From: a virus
Direction: 5' to 3' (one strand)
Length of the DNA stretch: 64,000 nucleotides
IMG/VR virus record: IMGVR_UViG_3300010397_000002
Span: 1 to 64,000 of that record
Made by a program: the position numbers and the translations under genes. This document shows positions 42,465 to 49,717 of the stretch, in pieces; within the stretch, counting starts at the first letter, position 1, and each line of letters opens with the position of its first letter. The notes below the pieces were generated by a model that saw only the letters and a list, made by a program, of their open reading frames with translations, had not been told where the DNA came from and did no database searches.

Positions 42465-42501
42465 AGTGTCCTGATAGTGTCCTGACCAAGCTTAGGACAC
42501 T
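42465..42501. repeat. AGTGTCCTGA repeats downstream of the 42.5-kb gene
   Basis: AGTGTCCTGA at 42465-42474 and 42476-42485, and the inverted AGGACACT at 42494-42501 touching the stop codon of the minus gene. The same unit recurs in the array at 43134-43308, so the repeats flank this gene. Confidence 0.75.
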
Positions 42502-42957
42502 TTAATTGTTTATTTCTGGCTTGTTCTTGCGGTATTTTGCTTTAATCTGATTATACAGATCAAGCCTCTCCTGCTTTTCTTCATCAGTAAGTCTTCTTCG
42601 GGTTCCCTTACTTATGGTCTGATAAAGTTTGATCATAAGTTTAGCTAATTCTTTATCCCTCTCAAGTTCATCTATAACCAGTTCAAGAAGCATTATTGCG
42701 CGCCGGTCCTGAGTATCATGCCAATAATAAAGTTTACCATCTTTCTCTTGAACTGACCTTGCTCCACCAAACATTTCGTACATAAAATCAACTTCCTCTT
42801 CATCCTCCGTCCTAATACGAACGAAAAACTTATACCCAACATATTCCCCAACAAACTTCTGTGAAGAGCCTATAAAAGCATAAGTTTCGACAATATCAGC
42901 AGCTTTTGAAATAGTAAAATCATCTACATCATTGAAAATAATTTTGATTTTTTTCAT
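42502..42957 (-). CDS. Repeat-flanked protein, unknown (151 aa)
   Basis: The start at 42957 (MKKIKIIFNDVDDFTISKAA) follows a hairpin and T-run; a longer in-frame start at 43113 would include the hairpin and the promoter and is unlikely. The N-terminal half is alpha/beta, the C-terminal half helical and basic (KGTRRRLTDEEKQERLDLYN, KAKYRKNKPEINN). Repeats of TCAGGACACT on both sides suggest it binds them and controls itself or a replication/partition site. No family recognised. Confidence 0.55.
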   Translation of the reverse strand: MKKIKIIFNDVDDFTISKAADIVETYAFIGSSQKFVGEYVGYKFFVRIRTEDEEEVDFMYEMFGGARSVQEKDGKLYYWHDTQDRRAIMLLELVIDELERDKELAKLMIKLYQTISKGTRRRLTDEEKQERLDLYNQIKAKYRKNKPEINN

Positions 42958-42969
42958 AAAAACAAAAAA

Positions 42970-43000
42970 CCCATGCAGTCTAGTAAGTACCTGCACGGGC
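42970..43000 (-). terminator. Terminator/attenuator just upstream of the gene at 42957
   Basis: On the minus strand GCCCGTGCAG, loop, CTGCATGGGTTTTTTGTTTTT and the ATG. A good rho-independent terminator placed between the promoter (-7 box at 43108-43101) and the start codon; this looks like an attenuator. Confidence 0.6.
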
Positions 43001-43100
43001 TTTAAAGATGGATATGGAGACCCGATCTTGATACCCCGCTTACTAGTTCGAAATAGCAAAATCATTACCGCATCAAAGGTAAAAAGATTATTAGATTTAC

Positions 43101-43108
43101 CAAATTTA
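43101..43108 (-). promoter_or_regulatory. -7 box of the repeat-flanked gene
   Basis: TAAATTTG on the minus strand matches TAnnTTTG exactly. The repeat units at 43134-43143 and beyond lie where the -33 region and upstream sites would be, so they can block or recruit polymerase. Confidence 0.5.
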
Positions 43109-43133
43109 AACACTCATTTATGGTAGTATCCTG

Positions 43134-43308
43134 AGTGTCCTGATAGTGTCCTGAAGTGTCCTAGGACACTCAAAATACAAGGTCTCTCTCTAGTGTCCTG
43201 CTTGTCCTAGTAGGTATAGGAATACCCTAGGACAGCAGGACACTAGGAGTATGCGGGTAGTAGGACGCTTAAAAAAAATAATATATTTTACTATTTGGTC
43301 AGGACACT
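43134..43308. repeat. Array of TCAGGACACT/AGTGTCCTGA repeats with large palindrome
   Basis: Units at 43134-43143, 43145-43154, a perfect 16-bp palindrome AGTGTCCTAGGACACT at 43155-43170, a unit at 43192-43199, its inverse at 43237-43244 and one at 43301-43308. Positions 43192-43244 form a long hairpin with 18-19-base arms (AGTGTCCTGC, TGTCCTAG) and an inner GGTAT/ATACC. The array lies between divergent genes. Iteron origin, partition site or operator are all possible. Confidence 0.75.
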
Positions 43309-43329
43309 AGAATGCTATATTTTCGTTCC

Positions 43330-43599
43330 ATGCTAAACGAATCACAACTCAGAATCCTAAACCTACCTAACGTCCAAGAACTCATCAAGGCCCTGGACTG
43401 TGAAGTCCACGACTCAGGGGTTGAAACCAGAAGGAAAGTATCAAACCGTGTCGAAGATATTCTTGGTAAAATTCAGAAGTCAGAAACCAAACCCCGGATT
43501 CTATCGGAAGATGCTCCGGTAAACGACCCGTTCTCAGACAAAGCAGCATGGGTAGAAGCTCAGAAGTCCATTCACGGTGAAGGATGGTCCCCGTTTTAG
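43330..43599 (+). CDS. Small protein next to the repeat array (89 aa)
   Basis: The start MLNESQLRILNLPNVQELIK at 43330 is preferred; an in-frame ATG at 43312 adds MLYFRS. A helical protein with basic patches (VSNRVEDILGKIQKSETK) ending HGEGWSPF. It lies 20 bases from the last repeat. It may belong to the same replication or control locus. Confidence 0.5.
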   Translation: MLNESQLRILNLPNVQELIKALDCEVHDSGVETRRKVSNRVEDILGKIQKSETKPRILSEDAPVNDPFSDKAAWVEAQKSIHGEGWSPF

Positions 43600-43919
43600 G
43601 AGATCGTTGCTCTAATGGGCTGTATTGAAGCCGAAATATTCTGTAAGGATGGGCGCTTGCGCCACCCGGTACCCCAGGCCCCGGTCGATCGATCATTGGG
43701 CAAGTCGGTTTTTCAGACCCGGGGGCCTCGAAAAAGAAAAAATATTTTTGCAAGCATTATGCTTATTGCTATATTTGAGCGGAAACAAAGCGTTTCTGTT
43801 GTTAGAGAGTAAAACAAACTCTAGTTTAATTGACAACGAGTGCAACAATAGAAAATTTGGCGGTATATGTCTCAAAATCAACACATTATTCCCATTCTGG
43901 TTCTATTTAACATAAGGTA
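43600..43919. other. Non-coding stretch with GC-rich island
   Basis: No convincing gene. From about 43645 to 43735 the sequence is much more GC-rich than its surroundings, with GGCGCTTGCGCC and an imperfect inverted repeat AGGCCCCGGTC / GACCCGGGGGCCT. Short overlapping frames here have odd composition. The rest (43740-43919) is AT-rich. A structured RNA or origin element is possible. Confidence 0.35.
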
Positions 43920-44432
43920 ATGGCGCGCCGCGTCGTTAAGCCGATTGGACCATCAAATAATCGCTTAGAGGATTTCTTTTCAAAGAGTACAAGCGAAGTT
44001 CGTATAGCATTAGGTTTAATCTCAAGTATTCGCTTTCGCGATTCTATCTACCAACAATTTAAAATTAATCGGTCTGAGGTTTGGGCGCTTACTTCCTTAG
44101 AATCTTACCTTGCGGTTAACGATAAGGTTATAGTAAGTCAGCAAATGTTTATTGACCATTGTTCTGGCAACTTTCAGCAAAAGCGTAAGATTATGGGTTT
44201 TATGTCTGGTTTGCTGAAGAAAGGTTGTTTAGGCTCTTTCGAGTATGTTAATACCAAGGGTTCATTCTCCGTTGGCATTACAGATTTTGGTTTTACGGTC
44301 ATTAATGCGTATTACAATGATGTTAATGCATTGTTTGGCCGATACATTAAGATGCCAAAGATTAACAATCAAAGATCCATTGATATTACGACCAATATAC
44401 CGATTCGTTACCGCTCTTTAATGTGTGCATAA
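43920..44432 (+). CDS. Winged-helix (MarR-like) DNA-binding protein candidate
   Basis: A 170-residue protein, basic at the N-terminus (MARRVVKPIGPSNNRL). The middle (EVWALTSLESYLAVNDKVIV, then KRKIMGFMSGLLKKGCLGSF and SFSVGITDFGF) follows the winged-helix layout: helices, recognition helix, beta-wing and x-T-x-x-G. It may be a transcription regulator of the small-gene region or a replication initiator, given the nearby repeat array. Confidence 0.5.
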   Translation: MARRVVKPIGPSNNRLEDFFSKSTSEVRIALGLISSIRFRDSIYQQFKINRSEVWALTSLESYLAVNDKVIVSQQMFIDHCSGNFQQKRKIMGFMSGLLKKGCLGSFEYVNTKGSFSVGITDFGFTVINAYYNDVNALFGRYIKMPKINNQRSIDITTNIPIRYRSLMCA

Positions 44433-44815: not shown

Positions 44816-44925
44816 AAAAAGCCACCCTTTTAATAATCGGCATATTGACTGTAATAGTTGCGGTTGCTTTATGCCCAAGGCCAATTGCGATGCGATCTTT
44901 AAATGTATTTAAAACGACTAAATAA
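44812..44925 (+). CDS. Single-TM micro-protein (37 aa)
   Basis: The ATG overlaps the upstream stop (ATGA). The protein MKKATLLIIGILTVIVAVAL has one hydrophobic helix and a short basic tail. The stop lies inside an AACGACTAAA box that precedes the next gene. A small membrane toxin or regulator is possible. Confidence 0.5.
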   Translation: MKKATLLIIGILTVIVAVALCPRPIAMRSLNVFKTTK

Positions 44926-44933
44926 TAACGACT

Positions 44934-45269
44934 ATGAAAACATTAACAAAAGACATGGTAAACTTTTCAATCAATTGTTTATCAGAATACGAGCCAATTA
45001 CTAAGTCTCTTTCATTTGAGACAACCGGTGCAGATCACTCTGAATACATACAAAAAGTACAACTTGACAACGGCGAAAACCCTTGGTTATGGTGTGCGGT
45101 TGAAGTGATTGCAGAGTTCAAAGGTATTCGTGGCGCGGCTTATTTAGGTGGCTGTGCATATGAAGATGAGCAAGGGTTTAAAGTTGGCGGCTATTATGAG
45201 CAAATGATTGATGAGGCTTTCGAGGAATTGAAGTCTAAAGTAGACGAAATAGTTAACGCCTTAAATTAA
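44934..45269 (+). CDS. Small protein, unknown (111 aa)
   Basis: A protein with Trp/Cys-containing core (ENPWLWCAVEVIAEFKGI) and GGCAYEDEQGFKVGGYYEQM, ending in a helix. An AACGACT box directly abuts the ATG. Function unknown. Confidence 0.55.
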   Translation: MKTLTKDMVNFSINCLSEYEPITKSLSFETTGADHSEYIQKVQLDNGENPWLWCAVEVIAEFKGIRGAAYLGGCAYEDEQGFKVGGYYEQMIDEAFEELKSKVDEIVNALN

Positions 45270-45275
45270 AAATTT

Positions 45276-45404
45276 ATGATAACCTTTAAACAAATGCCAT
45301 TATGCCCGAAATGTGGGTGTGCTATGGTAGGAGGTGCGCCTCATGGGCCTTGGCCTGTGCAGTATGAATGCCATTCATGCGGTCATATACTGATACCTAA
45401 ATAA
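45276..45404 (+). CDS. Zinc-ribbon micro-protein (42 aa)
   Basis: MITFKQMPLCPKCGCAMVGG and YECHSCGHILIPK: two CxxC knuckles about 17 residues apart with Gly/Pro between, a clear zinc ribbon. Lies seven bases after the previous gene. Probably nucleic-acid or protein binding. Confidence 0.65.
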   Translation: MITFKQMPLCPKCGCAMVGGAPHGPWPVQYECHSCGHILIPK

Positions 45405-45412
45405 TCAAGATC

Positions 45413-45529
45413 ATGAAACCCACCGAACAAATCTTATTCTTAACCAAAGACGCTGACATAATTTACGTGCCCTTCATTGGAGCGATTAAAAGCGTACTTG
45501 TTTTTGAGTATGTGAGTGTTAACAATTAA
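45413..45529 (+). CDS. Micro-protein, unknown (38 aa)
   Basis: A hydrophobic beta-like protein (MKPTEQILFLTKDADIIYVP, FIGAIKSVLVFEYVSVNN) nine bases after the zinc-ribbon gene. The stop overlaps the AACGACTAAA box of the next gene. Coding is plausible but only supported by spacing. Confidence 0.4.
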   Translation: MKPTEQILFLTKDADIIYVPFIGAIKSVLVFEYVSVNN

Positions 45530-45542
45530 ACGACTAAATATT

Positions 45543-45776
45543 ATGGAGATAACAACGGTAATTTTTTATAAAGAAGATGATGGGAGCATATTAGCGGTAT
45601 TCCCATACGAGCACAAAAGGATTCATGAAGTTGAATGTTATTCTTTTATCGGTCAGCATTCCAGTGCGGGTACTGAGTATTGCAACAAACTAAAGAAGGC
45701 AACTAAAAAAGAGTATGCTTCACTTAAAACAGAACTTGAAAGTAAGCCATATAATTACAAATTGAATGTTATTTAA
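45543..45776 (+). CDS. Small protein, unknown (77 aa)
   Basis: The start MEITTVIFYKEDDGSILAVF (ATG 45543) follows an AACGACTAAA box by four bases and is preferred to an upstream GTG. Beta-rich N-terminus with Cys (VECYSFIGQHSSAGTEYC) and Lys-rich C-terminus. Similar small proteins are common in Bacteroidetes phages; function unknown. Confidence 0.6.
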   Translation: MEITTVIFYKEDDGSILAVFPYEHKRIHEVECYSFIGQHSSAGTEYCNKLKKATKKEYASLKTELESKPYNYKLNVI

Positions 45777-45792
45777 AACATCTTAAAAGATC

Positions 45793-45918
45793 ATGGAACT
45801 AAAAAAAGAAATAACTAGGCTTGCGAAACTAAAAGGCTATCCGCACATAAAATTGTCAGCGTTACAATATCTCGACATTCTTACTCAGGCGCATAAAAAT
45901 ATTTATAAAACCTCTTAA
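45793..45918 (+). CDS. Micro-protein, unknown (41 aa)
   Basis: MELKKEITRLAKLKGYPHIK, a basic helical protein filling the gap between two genes; its stop overlaps the AACGACTA box of the next gene. Function unknown. Confidence 0.45.
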   Translation: MELKKEITRLAKLKGYPHIKLSALQYLDILTQAHKNIYKTS

Positions 45919-45930
45919 ACGACTACTAAA

Positions 45931-46506
45931 ATGAAAACGACTATTAAAAAATCAATCACAATCAAGCAAGCTTTGAAAACTGCAAATGACGGCAAGAATC
46001 AAAGTATCAAACAAAAGTTTGTAGGTCAACATGTTTATTGCAATGTGGGTTCTCTCTGTGAATATGTTGTTAATAAGGGCTTTGAAGATCCAAACGCGCC
46101 TTTTACGTTGGATGATATTGAGAACTATTATTCTTATCCTGAATACAACGGAATTTCCGCAAGCTTTGACGGTGGCAGTGAAGATCAAAGAAATGAAGAA
46201 ATTGAACGTCTACGCGATTTAATTACAGATAATGATCATAAAAAAGAAATGTGTGATACAATTGAATCTGAAATTGAAGAACTTAAAAATCTCGAATCCG
46301 AACCGCAAGAAATATTTGAATGGTGGGCGGTATCTGAGTACTTATATGATAAGCTAAAAGATATGGGTCATTGTGTTGTAGACGCTGGAAGCTGTTACGT
46401 TTGGGGTAGATGCACAACCGGTCAAGCTATTTTACTAGATCATTGTATTAGTCAGATATGTGCTGACATGGGAATATTAGAGGGACAAGCTAACAGTTGG
46501 GCATAA
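45931..46506 (+). CDS. Conserved-looking protein, unknown (191 aa)
   Basis: A protein with helical middle (NEEIERLRDLITDNDHKKEM) and a distinctive C-terminus IFEWWAVSEYLYDKLKDMGH, CYVWGRCTTGQAILLDHCIS. The W-W-x-V-S and G-R-x-x-T-G-Q-A-I pattern occurs in plasmid and phage proteins often linked to anti-restriction regions, as I remember. Preceded by an AACGACTACTAAA box. Function unknown. Confidence 0.6.
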   Translation: MKTTIKKSITIKQALKTANDGKNQSIKQKFVGQHVYCNVGSLCEYVVNKGFEDPNAPFTLDDIENYYSYPEYNGISASFDGGSEDQRNEEIERLRDLITDNDHKKEMCDTIESEIEELKNLESEPQEIFEWWAVSEYLYDKLKDMGHCVVDAGSCYVWGRCTTGQAILLDHCISQICADMGILEGQANSWA

Positions 46507-46977: not shown

Positions 46978-47010
46978 CTCAAATGACTTTATGCAAACTA
47001 AATTTGGATC

Positions 47011-47313
47011 ATGATACTGCATTACATAAATAACAAATTAATTGGAATTGCTAATGAAAATTTATTCTCGGTTAATCTTTTTGATTATCAGTTATTACAG
47101 CAAGACATCATACAAGAAATAGATAACTCTCGGTGGGTTGATAATCATATCTTAATTATAGATAACAAAAAACGATATGAGTTTACGCATAGAGAAGAAA
47201 AAATTTATCTAGGCGATGAACTTATAAGTAATGATTTTAGAGATTTATTTATATCTCTGATTAATCCTGAAATGTGTAGACTGAAAAACAGATTTAAAAC
47301 ATTTACGGATTAA
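47011..47313 (+). CDS. Small protein, unknown (100 aa)
   Basis: A beta-rich protein (MILHYINNKLIGIANENLFS, ILIIDNKKRYEFTHREEKIY) after the terminator; a GCAAACTAAA box lies 10-20 bases upstream of its ATG. Function unknown. Confidence 0.5.
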   Translation: MILHYINNKLIGIANENLFSVNLFDYQLLQQDIIQEIDNSRWVDNHILIIDNKKRYEFTHREEKIYLGDELISNDFRDLFISLINPEMCRLKNRFKTFTD

Positions 47314-47378
47314 CCATCTTCAAAACCTTTCGGTGTATAGGCCAACCGTTGATTTAACTGCAAACTAAATTTAAAACA

Positions 47379-47501
47379 ATGAAACCAACAACTAAAATCC
47401 TCAAAGTATTCACCACCTATTGGACTAAGCAAAGGTATGCACTAGTTCGTATCAATGGAGTTGGTGTATTTATTAAGCTAAACTTTTTAACTGCAAACTA
47501 A
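47379..47501 (+). CDS. Micro-protein, unknown (40 aa)
   Basis: MKPTTKILKVFTTYWTKQRY followed by ALVRINGVGVFIKLNF; two beta-hairpin-like halves. A GCAAACTAAA box precedes it and its own end contains the box for the next gene. Function unknown. Confidence 0.45.
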   Translation: MKPTTKILKVFTTYWTKQRYALVRINGVGVFIKLNFLTAN

Positions 47502-47503
47502 TT

Positions 47504-47857
47504 ATGAAAACAATAGACTTACATAAAAATTACATCCTCATTCATAAATTTCGTTATCCAGATGAGCCCATGAAGCAATGGGTTGTAGAAGATGAAACAT
47601 CAATCGGGCAGTATCACAATGATTGGAATGAGTTGATGGAAGTAGTTGATAAGATTGAATCATTAGGTTATGATTCTGGTATTTGTGGCGTAGTAATTAA
47701 AAACGAAAAACTGACAGAGATACTATTTGCCCCACAAGTCAAAAGTAATACCATAGAGGTTCATACCAGGACAAGAAAATCAAAAATAATGGCTACGTAT
47801 GAAGCTGTTGTTATGTGGATAGAATTACATGGAGAAGAAATCCTTAGAGCAAACTAA
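47504..47857 (+). CDS. Small protein, unknown (117 aa)
   Basis: A protein with YILIHKFRYPDEPMKQWVVE and a helical second half; spaced two bases after the previous stop with box GCAAACTAATT before the ATG. Function unknown. Confidence 0.55.
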   Translation: MKTIDLHKNYILIHKFRYPDEPMKQWVVEDETSIGQYHNDWNELMEVVDKIESLGYDSGICGVVIKNEKLTEILFAPQVKSNTIEVHTRTRKSKIMATYEAVVMWIELHGEEILRAN

Positions 47858-47859
47858 TT

Positions 47860-48117
47860 ATGAAAACTGAACAACAAGTTTTATTCGAAGCAAAAGCAAT
47901 TTTATTTGGCCTATTAGTTAATAAGTCTGATAGTGAATTAACACTTGTTGAAGCTGAGATTTTAGAGGCTATTTCCAGGGATCACCAAATCCAAGAGAAA
48001 CTTAATCTCCCCAAAGATCAAGCTGAAATTGATCGAAGACTGAAAGAGCGAAACACAATCACAAAGCACAATAGCGAATTTCCTTTACCGCCTTACGAAT
48101 CGTATGAAAAAGAATAG
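47860..48117 (+). CDS. Small helical protein, unknown (85 aa)
   Basis: An acidic helical protein (EQQVLFEAKAILFGLLVNKS, LTLVEAEILEAISRDHQIQ) with box GCAAACTAATT before its ATG. It overlaps the basic micro-gene at 48104. Function unknown. Confidence 0.55.
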   Translation: MKTEQQVLFEAKAILFGLLVNKSDSELTLVEAEILEAISRDHQIQEKLNLPKDQAEIDRRLKERNTITKHNSEFPLPPYESYEKE

Positions 48118-48205
48118 ACTCCCGCGCAAACTAAAAAAGAAAATTAAAAATCGTCCAAACTTTTTAATTAAGAAGCTGGCGAAAGAAAACGGGCATCTCA
48201 TTTAA
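48104..48205 (+). CDS. Very basic micro-protein (33 aa)
   Basis: MKKNRLPRKLKKKIKNRPNF, almost half Lys/Arg, overlaps the upstream gene end by 14 bases. Could bind nucleic acid. Coding support is the overlap with the operon and clean frame only. Confidence 0.35.
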   Translation: MKKNRLPRKLKKKIKNRPNFLIKKLAKENGHLI

Positions 48206-48237: not shown

Positions 48238-48426
48238 ATGACCAACACCGAAAAAATAGACACCTTCTTCCATAAGCTTACAGAGGATGAGAAACATGAG
48301 TTAGTATGTCGAAGTGCAAACAGCCAATGGAATTGGCAAACTAATACTGTGATTTTGGGTTGGAGCTCTATGAAGCATTTAGAAAAATACCAAGAAATGT
48401 TAATCACTAAATATTACAACAAATGA
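48238..48426 (+). CDS. Small protein, unknown (62 aa)
   Basis: A protein with EKIDTFFHKLTEDEKHELVC and WNWQTNTVILGWSSMKHLEK. The upstream GGAAAG looks like a Shine-Dalgarno site, rare in this window. It overlaps the start of the Thg1-like gene. Function unknown. Confidence 0.55.
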   Translation: MTNTEKIDTFFHKLTEDEKHELVCRSANSQWNWQTNTVILGWSSMKHLEKYQEMLITKYYNK

Positions 48427-49133
48427 AAGATGCAATTGGCGACCGAATGAAAAACTACTATGAAGATAGAACAAGATTCTCTCTCATTCGCAGATCATAC
48501 ACGATCATACGCATAGATGGCAAAGCATTTCACACCTACACAAAAGGACTGCAAAGACCTTTCGACGATCAGTTAATAAATGATATGGATCAAACCGCAT
48601 GCTTTCTTTGTAAAAACATTCAAGGTGCTAAGTTTGCATTTGTTCAGTCAGATGAGATTTCAATATTATTAACTGACTTTGAGGAATTAACTACTGATGC
48701 TTGGTTTGATGGTAACATTCAAAAAATGGTTAGTGTATCGGCCAGCTTGGCAACTGCAAGGTTTAATGAATTGCGACCTAGCAAACTAGCTTTTTTTGAT
48801 TCACGCGTATTTCAAATTCCAAGTAAAATTGAGGTAGAAAATTATTTCATTTGGCGCCAACAAGATACTGTTAGAAATAGCATTCAATCTACTGCTCAGT
48901 CAGTGTATTCACACAAAGAACTCGAAAATAAAACCACGGATCAGCAACAAGAGATGATCTTTCAGAAGGGTATAAACTGGAATGATTACGAACCAAAATA
49001 TAAAAGAGGGCGAATTATTCTTAAAGAAAATTATTTGAAAGAATATGCTATTAGAAGTCGTTGGATAAGTTCGGAGGCCCCCACATTCACCAAAGACAGG
49101 GAATTTTTATCAACTAAAATTCCTATCTTATGA
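48423..49133 (+). CDS. thg1: tRNA(His) guanylyltransferase-like (Thg1) enzyme
   Basis: A 236-residue enzyme with Thg1 motifs: YTIIRIDGKAFHTYTKGLQR (metal-binding Asp32), then CKNIQGAKFAFVQSDEISIL (Asp77, Glu78), and SVSASLATARFNE. Thg1 proteins add nucleotides in the 3'-5' direction to tRNA 5' ends; bacterial Thg1-like proteins repair truncated tRNAs. In a phage this could restore tRNAs damaged by host defence nucleases. It sits between a small gene and a serine recombinase with overlaps. The family call is firm, the role is inference. Confidence 0.88.
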   Translation: MKDAIGDRMKNYYEDRTRFSLIRRSYTIIRIDGKAFHTYTKGLQRPFDDQLINDMDQTACFLCKNIQGAKFAFVQSDEISILLTDFEELTTDAWFDGNIQKMVSVSASLATARFNELRPSKLAFFDSRVFQIPSKIEVENYFIWRQQDTVRNSIQSTAQSVYSHKELENKTTDQQQEMIFQKGINWNDYEPKYKRGRIILKENYLKEYAIRSRWISSEAPTFTKDREFLSTKIPIL

Positions 49134-49717
49134 TCCGAGGCTACGCCCGCGTTTCCACCCAACACCAAGACCTTGGCCGACAGATCCAAGACCTCAATCA
49201 ATACGGTTGTGAGATCATCTACCAAGAGAAGATTTCAGGCAAACTAAATAAGAGACCTGAGCTTGATAGGATGCTTGAAGAGATGCAAGCGGGTGACGTG
49301 ATTGTCATCCATAAGCTGGACCGACTAGGGCGCTCCCTTCAGCATTTGATTGAGCTTGTGAACACGTTCAAGGACCGAGGCGTTGACTTTATATCGCTCA
49401 AAGATAACTTCAACACCACCACCCCACAGGGCAAACTAATTTTCAATATCATGGGCTCCATCGCAGAGTTTGAGAGAGAGCTAATATTAGAGCGAGTGAA
49501 CAGTGGCATAAAGCACACTAAAATCCATGGCACTAAAACAGGACGGGCACATGGTAGGCCAGACAAAAGCAAGGACCCGAAAACTATTGAGGATGTTGTT
49601 AATTTATATCAATCTGATACAGCGATAACGGTTAAAGAAATTTCGGAAAAGATGAAGATTAGCAGACCAACTGTTTATAAAATTTTGAGGCAAAACACCG
49701 AATTAGTCATTCGTTAA
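49130..49717 (+). CDS. Serine recombinase (resolvase/invertase)
   Basis: A 195-residue enzyme of small resolvase size. The catalytic Ser9 lies in YARVSTQHQDLGRQ; the core continues with VIHKLDRLGRSLQHLIELV and GSIAEFERELILERV; the C-terminal HTH is VKEISEKMKISRPTVYKIL. It could resolve phage dimers, invert a segment or integrate. No clear inverted recombination sites were found beside it. Overlaps the Thg1-like gene by four bases. Confidence 0.88.
   Translation: MIRGYARVSTQHQDLGRQIQDLNQYGCEIIYQEKISGKLNKRPELDRMLEEMQAGDVIVIHKLDRLGRSLQHLIELVNTFKDRGVDFISLKDNFNTTTPQGKLIFNIMGSIAEFERELILERVNSGIKHTKIHGTKTGRAHGRPDKSKDPKTIEDVVNLYQSDTAITVKEISEKMKISRPTVYKILRQNTELVIR

Follow-up and report, generated by a model that had tools for sequence, protein, structure and literature searches.

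In the immunity regions of phages lambda and 434 and of mycobacteriophages L5 and Bxb1, homologous circuits use different operator words that are matched to diverged repressors (PMC6550527), and in lambda the operators flank the repressor gene on both sides. Comparable properties were found in a repeat array located at positions 42465 to 43308 of a 64-kb window (the whole stretch of DNA that was analysed) of the IMG/VR virus record IMGVR_UViG_3300010397_000002 (G000; 77,300 bp). The array encloses the gene for a protein designated P0001 and, as in a lambda-type immunity region, this putative regulator gene faces a small divergent gene, P0002. The G000 sites differ from those of lambda/434 and L5/Bxb1 in forming one ten-site hub, repression and lysogeny are putative here, and the repressors of those phages are not LAGLIDADG proteins, unlike what is predicted for P0001. 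We consider it somewhat better than an even chance that the array is an operator hub with a lambda-immunity-like layout, bound by P0001 as a LAGLIDADG-derived regulator.

Other described proteins resemble P0001 in different respects. WhiA, a bacterial transcription factor, is likewise a degenerate LAGLIDADG protein without catalytic residues (PMC3781837); it binds via an added C-terminal helix-turn-helix domain, which is absent from the single-domain P0001. The short asymmetric WhiA motif GACAC (PMC3781837) also occurs in AGGACACT of the G000 units, but this is probably a coincidence, as the units of a related phage, G001, do not contain GACAC. I-TevI of phage T4 is a homing endonuclease that binds an operator over its own promoter, with leader RNA structure adding control (PMC2988022), but it is catalytically active, belongs to the GIY-YIG enzymes and has a single operator, whereas G000 has ten sites and a candidate regulator without a catalytic acid. 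I-CreI/I-MsoI and the phage family phrog_5046 (Cyanophage PP gp36) are linked to P0001 by predicted fold and profile match; unlike them, P0001 lacks the motif acid and its gene is conserved inside an operator-like array.

Ten repeat units surround the P0001 gene

The array is real. Exact copies of AGTGTCCT were counted on both strands of the 77.3-kb record, and all 10 were within 42465 to 43308. The expected number was 0.92 per 64-kb window, 10 copies were reached in 0 of 100 shuffles, and in simulated genomes (n = 60) no 8-mer exceeded 5 copies in a stretch of similar length. The sites form four groups, with the orientations ++- (A), +++- (B), +- (C) and - (D), and units with one mismatch at 43125+ and 43262- also fit the pattern. 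The features of the locus are as follows.

42465+, 42476+, 42494-, 43134+, 43145+, 43155+, 43163-, 43192+, 43237-, 43301-: exact copies of AGTGTCCT
42465 to 42501: array A, units 42465+, 42476+ and 42494-, directly downstream of the P0001 gene; G001 counterpart at L004 3640-3688
42502 to 42957, minus strand: P0001, 151 amino acids, predicted LAGLIDADG (I-CreI-like) fold, proposed regulator
43125 to 43170: array B, units 43125+ (one mismatch), 43134+, 43145+, 43155+ and 43163-
43190 to 43246: array C, units 43192+ and 43237- in a long stem-loop that also has two partial units inside
43262 to 43269, minus strand: one-mismatch unit AGCGTCCT
43271 to 43297: AT-rich tract, 27 bp, 7% GC, adjoining the P0002 promoter
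43301 to 43308, minus strand: site D, a lone unit within the P0002 promoter spacer; G001 counterpart at L004 4899
43330 to 43599, plus strand: P0002, 89 amino acids, divergent gene

Array B has a pitch of 9 to 11 bp and terminates in a perfect 16-bp palindrome (43155 to 43170), as does its equivalent in G001 (ACTATCCCGGGAGAGT). The array C stem-loop was reflected in a folding z of -6.75 for 43120 to 43270, and a stem-loop was detected at the equivalent place in G001. Two genes diverge from the array, starting at 42957 (minus) and 43330 (plus). An earlier, sequence-only reading of this DNA had described at least nine units in both orientations around the gene at 42502 to 42957, the palindrome, a long hairpin, the diverging genes and a repeat density unlike the rest of the window; each of these was borne out, with one exact unit more than the minimum it gave and zero further copies in the record.

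The site layout is conserved while the repeat word has changed

The comparison phage G001 (IMGVR_UViG_3300033475_000013; 77.9 kb) carries the array locus on piece L004. Exactly ten copies of ACTMTCCC were detected in its 77.9 kb, all inside a syntenic 1.27-kb interval, and their order and orientation were identical to those in G000, a match with a chance of about 1/210 by shuffling of orientation order. Spacings (G000/G001) were 11/10 and 18/31 bp in array A and 11/10, 10/10, 8/8, 29/28, 45/58 and 64/62 bp from B through D in window order, with near-identical values in the promoter-side cluster. The repeat word was changed at positions 2, 4 and 8 in all ten sites. The persistence of the same ten sites with the word changed throughout suggests that they are the sites of one protein with a shifted specificity and not chance repeats; a layout kept while all ten words changed is what would be expected of a single sequence-specific DNA-binding protein. 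Identity between the two phages was 83% for terminase, 62% for DnaB, 57% for a small serine recombinase, 51% for P0002 (with a well-conserved N-terminal half), 34% for P0004 and 33% for P0001 and its G001 counterpart, P0006, so that P0001 had diverged furthest among those compared. A trait of immunity regions, differing operator words and diverged regulators in relatives, was found here in two phages, with putative operators and a putative regulator.

A hub of operators read by another protein, namely P0002, P0004 or the serine recombinase at 49130 to 49717, was considered unlikely. P0004 and the recombinase have diverged, so that their specificity could have changed too, and P0002 is the divergent neighbour of the array. 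However, P0001 alone is bracketed by sites in both phages and has a recognised DNA-binding fold (predicted), the N-terminal half of P0002 is conserved as noted above, and the recombinase is 6 kb distant. P0001 is the likeliest source of the array-binding protein because its gene is enclosed by sites in both phages, its divergence is the greatest among the proteins compared and its predicted fold is LAGLIDADG.

Promoter and leader signals accompany the sites

The first and last ~120 bases of the G000 record are identical, and the 77.3-kb genome therefore looks complete. Terminase relatives were found in Flavobacterium and Cellulophaga phages (~26% identity), an indication that G000 infects Bacteroidetes. 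The Bacteroidetes promoter consensus is TTTG / TAnnTTTG (PMC7366714), and the following signals were located.

43104 to 43074, minus strand: promoter-like TTTG-N19-TACCTTTG of P0001, exact Bacteroidetes consensus, with array B directly upstream
43039 to 43046, minus strand: leader element CUAGUAAG, complementary to the terminator loop CUUACUAG (42980 to 42987)
42970 to 42999, minus strand: terminator-like hairpin in the P0001 leader, followed by a U-run, conserved in G001
43294 to 43323, plus strand: promoter-like TTTG-N18-TATATTTT of P0002, with a 7/8 match to the -7 box
43920 to 44432, plus strand: P0004, 170 amino acids, the next rightward gene, no family match

The P0001 match listed above is a better promoter candidate than the exact -7 box noted earlier next to the array. 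In the P0002 promoter-like sequence, site D has the -33 box on one side and the -7 box on the other. A leftward promoter-like TTGG-N19-TATGTTTG abuts array A in G001, and TTTG-N19-TATATTTG is present upstream of P0004 at 43747. A second trait of immunity regions, a regulator gene flanked by operators that overlap divergent promoters, was found here for the putative operators and regulator, with promoters defined by consensus matches. The attenuator-like terminator proposed before the P0001 gene proved to be a real hairpin. The leader element could form 8 pairs with the terminator loop in G000, of which 7 are kept in G001, 3 of them via changes on both sides, a covariation that is statistically weak with two sequences; an eight-base match had a chance of 0.007 in simulated leaders. 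Such a pairing may reflect attenuation or antitermination. Taken together, the signals at the promoters and in the leader fit regulation. In Rfam, nothing reached the gathering threshold, and the leader matches to trpB and SprX were weak and far under the cut-off.

These placements also bear on whether the array is a replication origin of the iteron type; in plasmids P1 and F, such repeats flank the gene of an initiator. The direct repeats at helical pitch that flank a single gene here, the 7% GC tract at 43271 to 43297 and a DnaB helicase gene 2.3 kb away would all suit an origin. Classic iterons are ~20 bp. The units here are 8 to 10 bp at a one-turn pitch and are placed at promoters, the predicted fold of P0001 is LAGLIDADG and not winged-helix, and neither a DnaA-box cluster nor a recognised initiator was detected at the array. 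The GC-skew check proposed for an origin gave no cumulative-skew turn at the array, and we judge an origin to be improbable.

P0001 has a predicted LAGLIDADG fold without the catalytic acid

An AlphaFold model of P0001 had the alpha-beta-beta-alpha-beta-beta-alpha arrangement of the LAGLIDADG fold, in a single domain of LAGLIDADG size. The 50 best Foldseek matches listed were LAGLIDADG enzymes or engineered variants (best E, 4e-5), a VIA comparison with I-CreI gave a Z of 15.0 over residues 7 to 149, and the named top phage matches in the viral library were LAGLIDADG proteins. The only phage family profile that matched P0001 well was phrog_5046 (2.5e-5), which also matched P0006 (1.1e-4) and its own member Cyanophage PP gp36 (4e-44); the motif of gp36, AGLFDGEG, is canonical LAGLIDADG. 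An HNH reading taken from the phrog_5046 label 'HNH endonuclease' was dropped on account of this motif, and the family (PHROGs v4) so labelled appears to be a LAGLIDADG family.

The catalytic positions of P0001 and P0006 were placed by hhalign, MAFFT and structural offset, and no register contained an aligned acid. I-CreI D20 and the gp36 glutamate align with nonacidic residues in P0001, P0006 and P0007, the latter being encoded by a second G001 gene between the arrays. P0007 resembles gp36 locally (E, 4e-5), and its catalytic position, in LAYIYDYFGYAVI, is occupied by F. P0001 thus seems to have lost the nuclease catalytic residue, and its predicted place in the homing-endonuclease family is one of fold and not of catalytic motif. 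An active LAGLIDADG homing or mobile element, with the repeats as its target or end sequences, would account for the predicted fold and for a perfect 15-bp inverted repeat (42475 to 42489/43295 to 43309). It is very improbable, given the missing acid in all three proteins, an unchanged position and arrangement in two phages that have diverged, units that are internal and promoter linked, and the harm that self-cleavage would do.

Least probable of all is a partition centre (parS/parC-like) or a serine-recombinase crossover array, which would suit the clustered direct and inverted repeats and the small serine recombinase of both phages, but no ParA/ParM/TubZ match was found among the neighbouring genes scanned (some small open reading frames were outside the scan), and the inverted-pair spacing in array A differs (18 versus 31 bp) where resolvase dimer sites are fixed. 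An invertible segment, with inverted units around the gene and a serine recombinase, was set aside because the units are also direct and at promoters in both phages.

A proposed operator hub

The sequence-only reading had left origin, partition site and operator side by side. Operator is the best supported, because the sites are at promoters, all ten changed along with a fast-diverging neighbour gene and a DNA-binding fold is predicted for the flanked product; origin and partition are weaker. In the proposed hub, P0001, its catalytic acid lost, would bind ~8- to 10-bp units singly (D), in tandem or inverted (A and B) and in the stem-loop (C). It would control its own gene and would repress the divergent gene P0002 and possibly also leftward transcription past array A. 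Related phages with different operator words and diverged regulators would then be heteroimmune-like. We infer both the identity of the binder (P0001) and the direction of regulation, as well as any role in immunity; as an immunity region the locus has the layout and the heterospecificity, and its binding and immunity functions are putative.

Several results count against this proposal. The P0001 model was built on two sequences, and one of five models was confident (82.7; next, 57.1). A 10- to 11-bp pitch of direct units is unusual for a LAGLIDADG dimer, a reader of ~22-bp pseudo-palindromes. A leftward promoter beside array A was sought in G000, and none was found. The proteins scanned included no recognisable integrase as a sign of a temperate lifestyle. 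Relatives of P0001, P0002, P0004 and DnaB were sought in phages, plasmids, viral contigs and genomes, and the module was detected only in G001, so that it is known from two genomes.

A broader proposal, that a bare, cleavage-dead LAGLIDADG repressor family governs a lambda-like switch in Bacteroidetes phages and is heteroimmune via ten co-changing operators, is tentative and rather doubtful. If true, a selfish nuclease fold would have been turned into a phage gene switch with no further DNA-binding domain attached, and G000 and G001 would be a natural pair for examining how one DNA-binding protein shifts specificity together with its ten separate operators. How phage immunity evolves through such a joint change of protein and operator specificity is poorly understood (PMC6550527).

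Neighbouring genes and other repeats

A structure model of P0002 was discarded as too poor (pTM, 0.26). The GC-rich structured region after P0002 (window 43600-43745; L004 5217-5325) shares a ACCCGGGGGCCTC stem and could be a terminator or small RNA; its fold stability was significant in G001 (z, -2.31) and not unusual in G000 (z, 0.08). Farther right, window positions 44913-45936 and 46993-48126 contain five same-strand copies of AACGACTA and five of GCAAACTA, which may be phage leader or promoter-like signals, and the region 48423-49717 holds a gene for a tRNA-His guanylyltransferase (Thg1) that runs into the start of the small serine recombinase gene. A tRNA search of the window found none; in G001, four tRNA genes (Leu, His, Gln and Pro; L004:3057-3457) lie between a methyltransferase gene and array A, where G000 has none.

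No similar repeat array was detected in the pieces examined of an elemovirus, phi38:1 and G004. In MW202828.1 (L123), the perfect palindrome GTGTCGTTAACGACAC is dispersed over one gene block (~43.7-55.2 kb) in at least 14 copies, as a candidate phage-wide operator set, differing from the G000 array in word and in dispersal. The 23 copies of ATTCGGGC at L004:8684-9015 in G001 arise from the coding sequence of an NSGN/DxNSG repeat protein.
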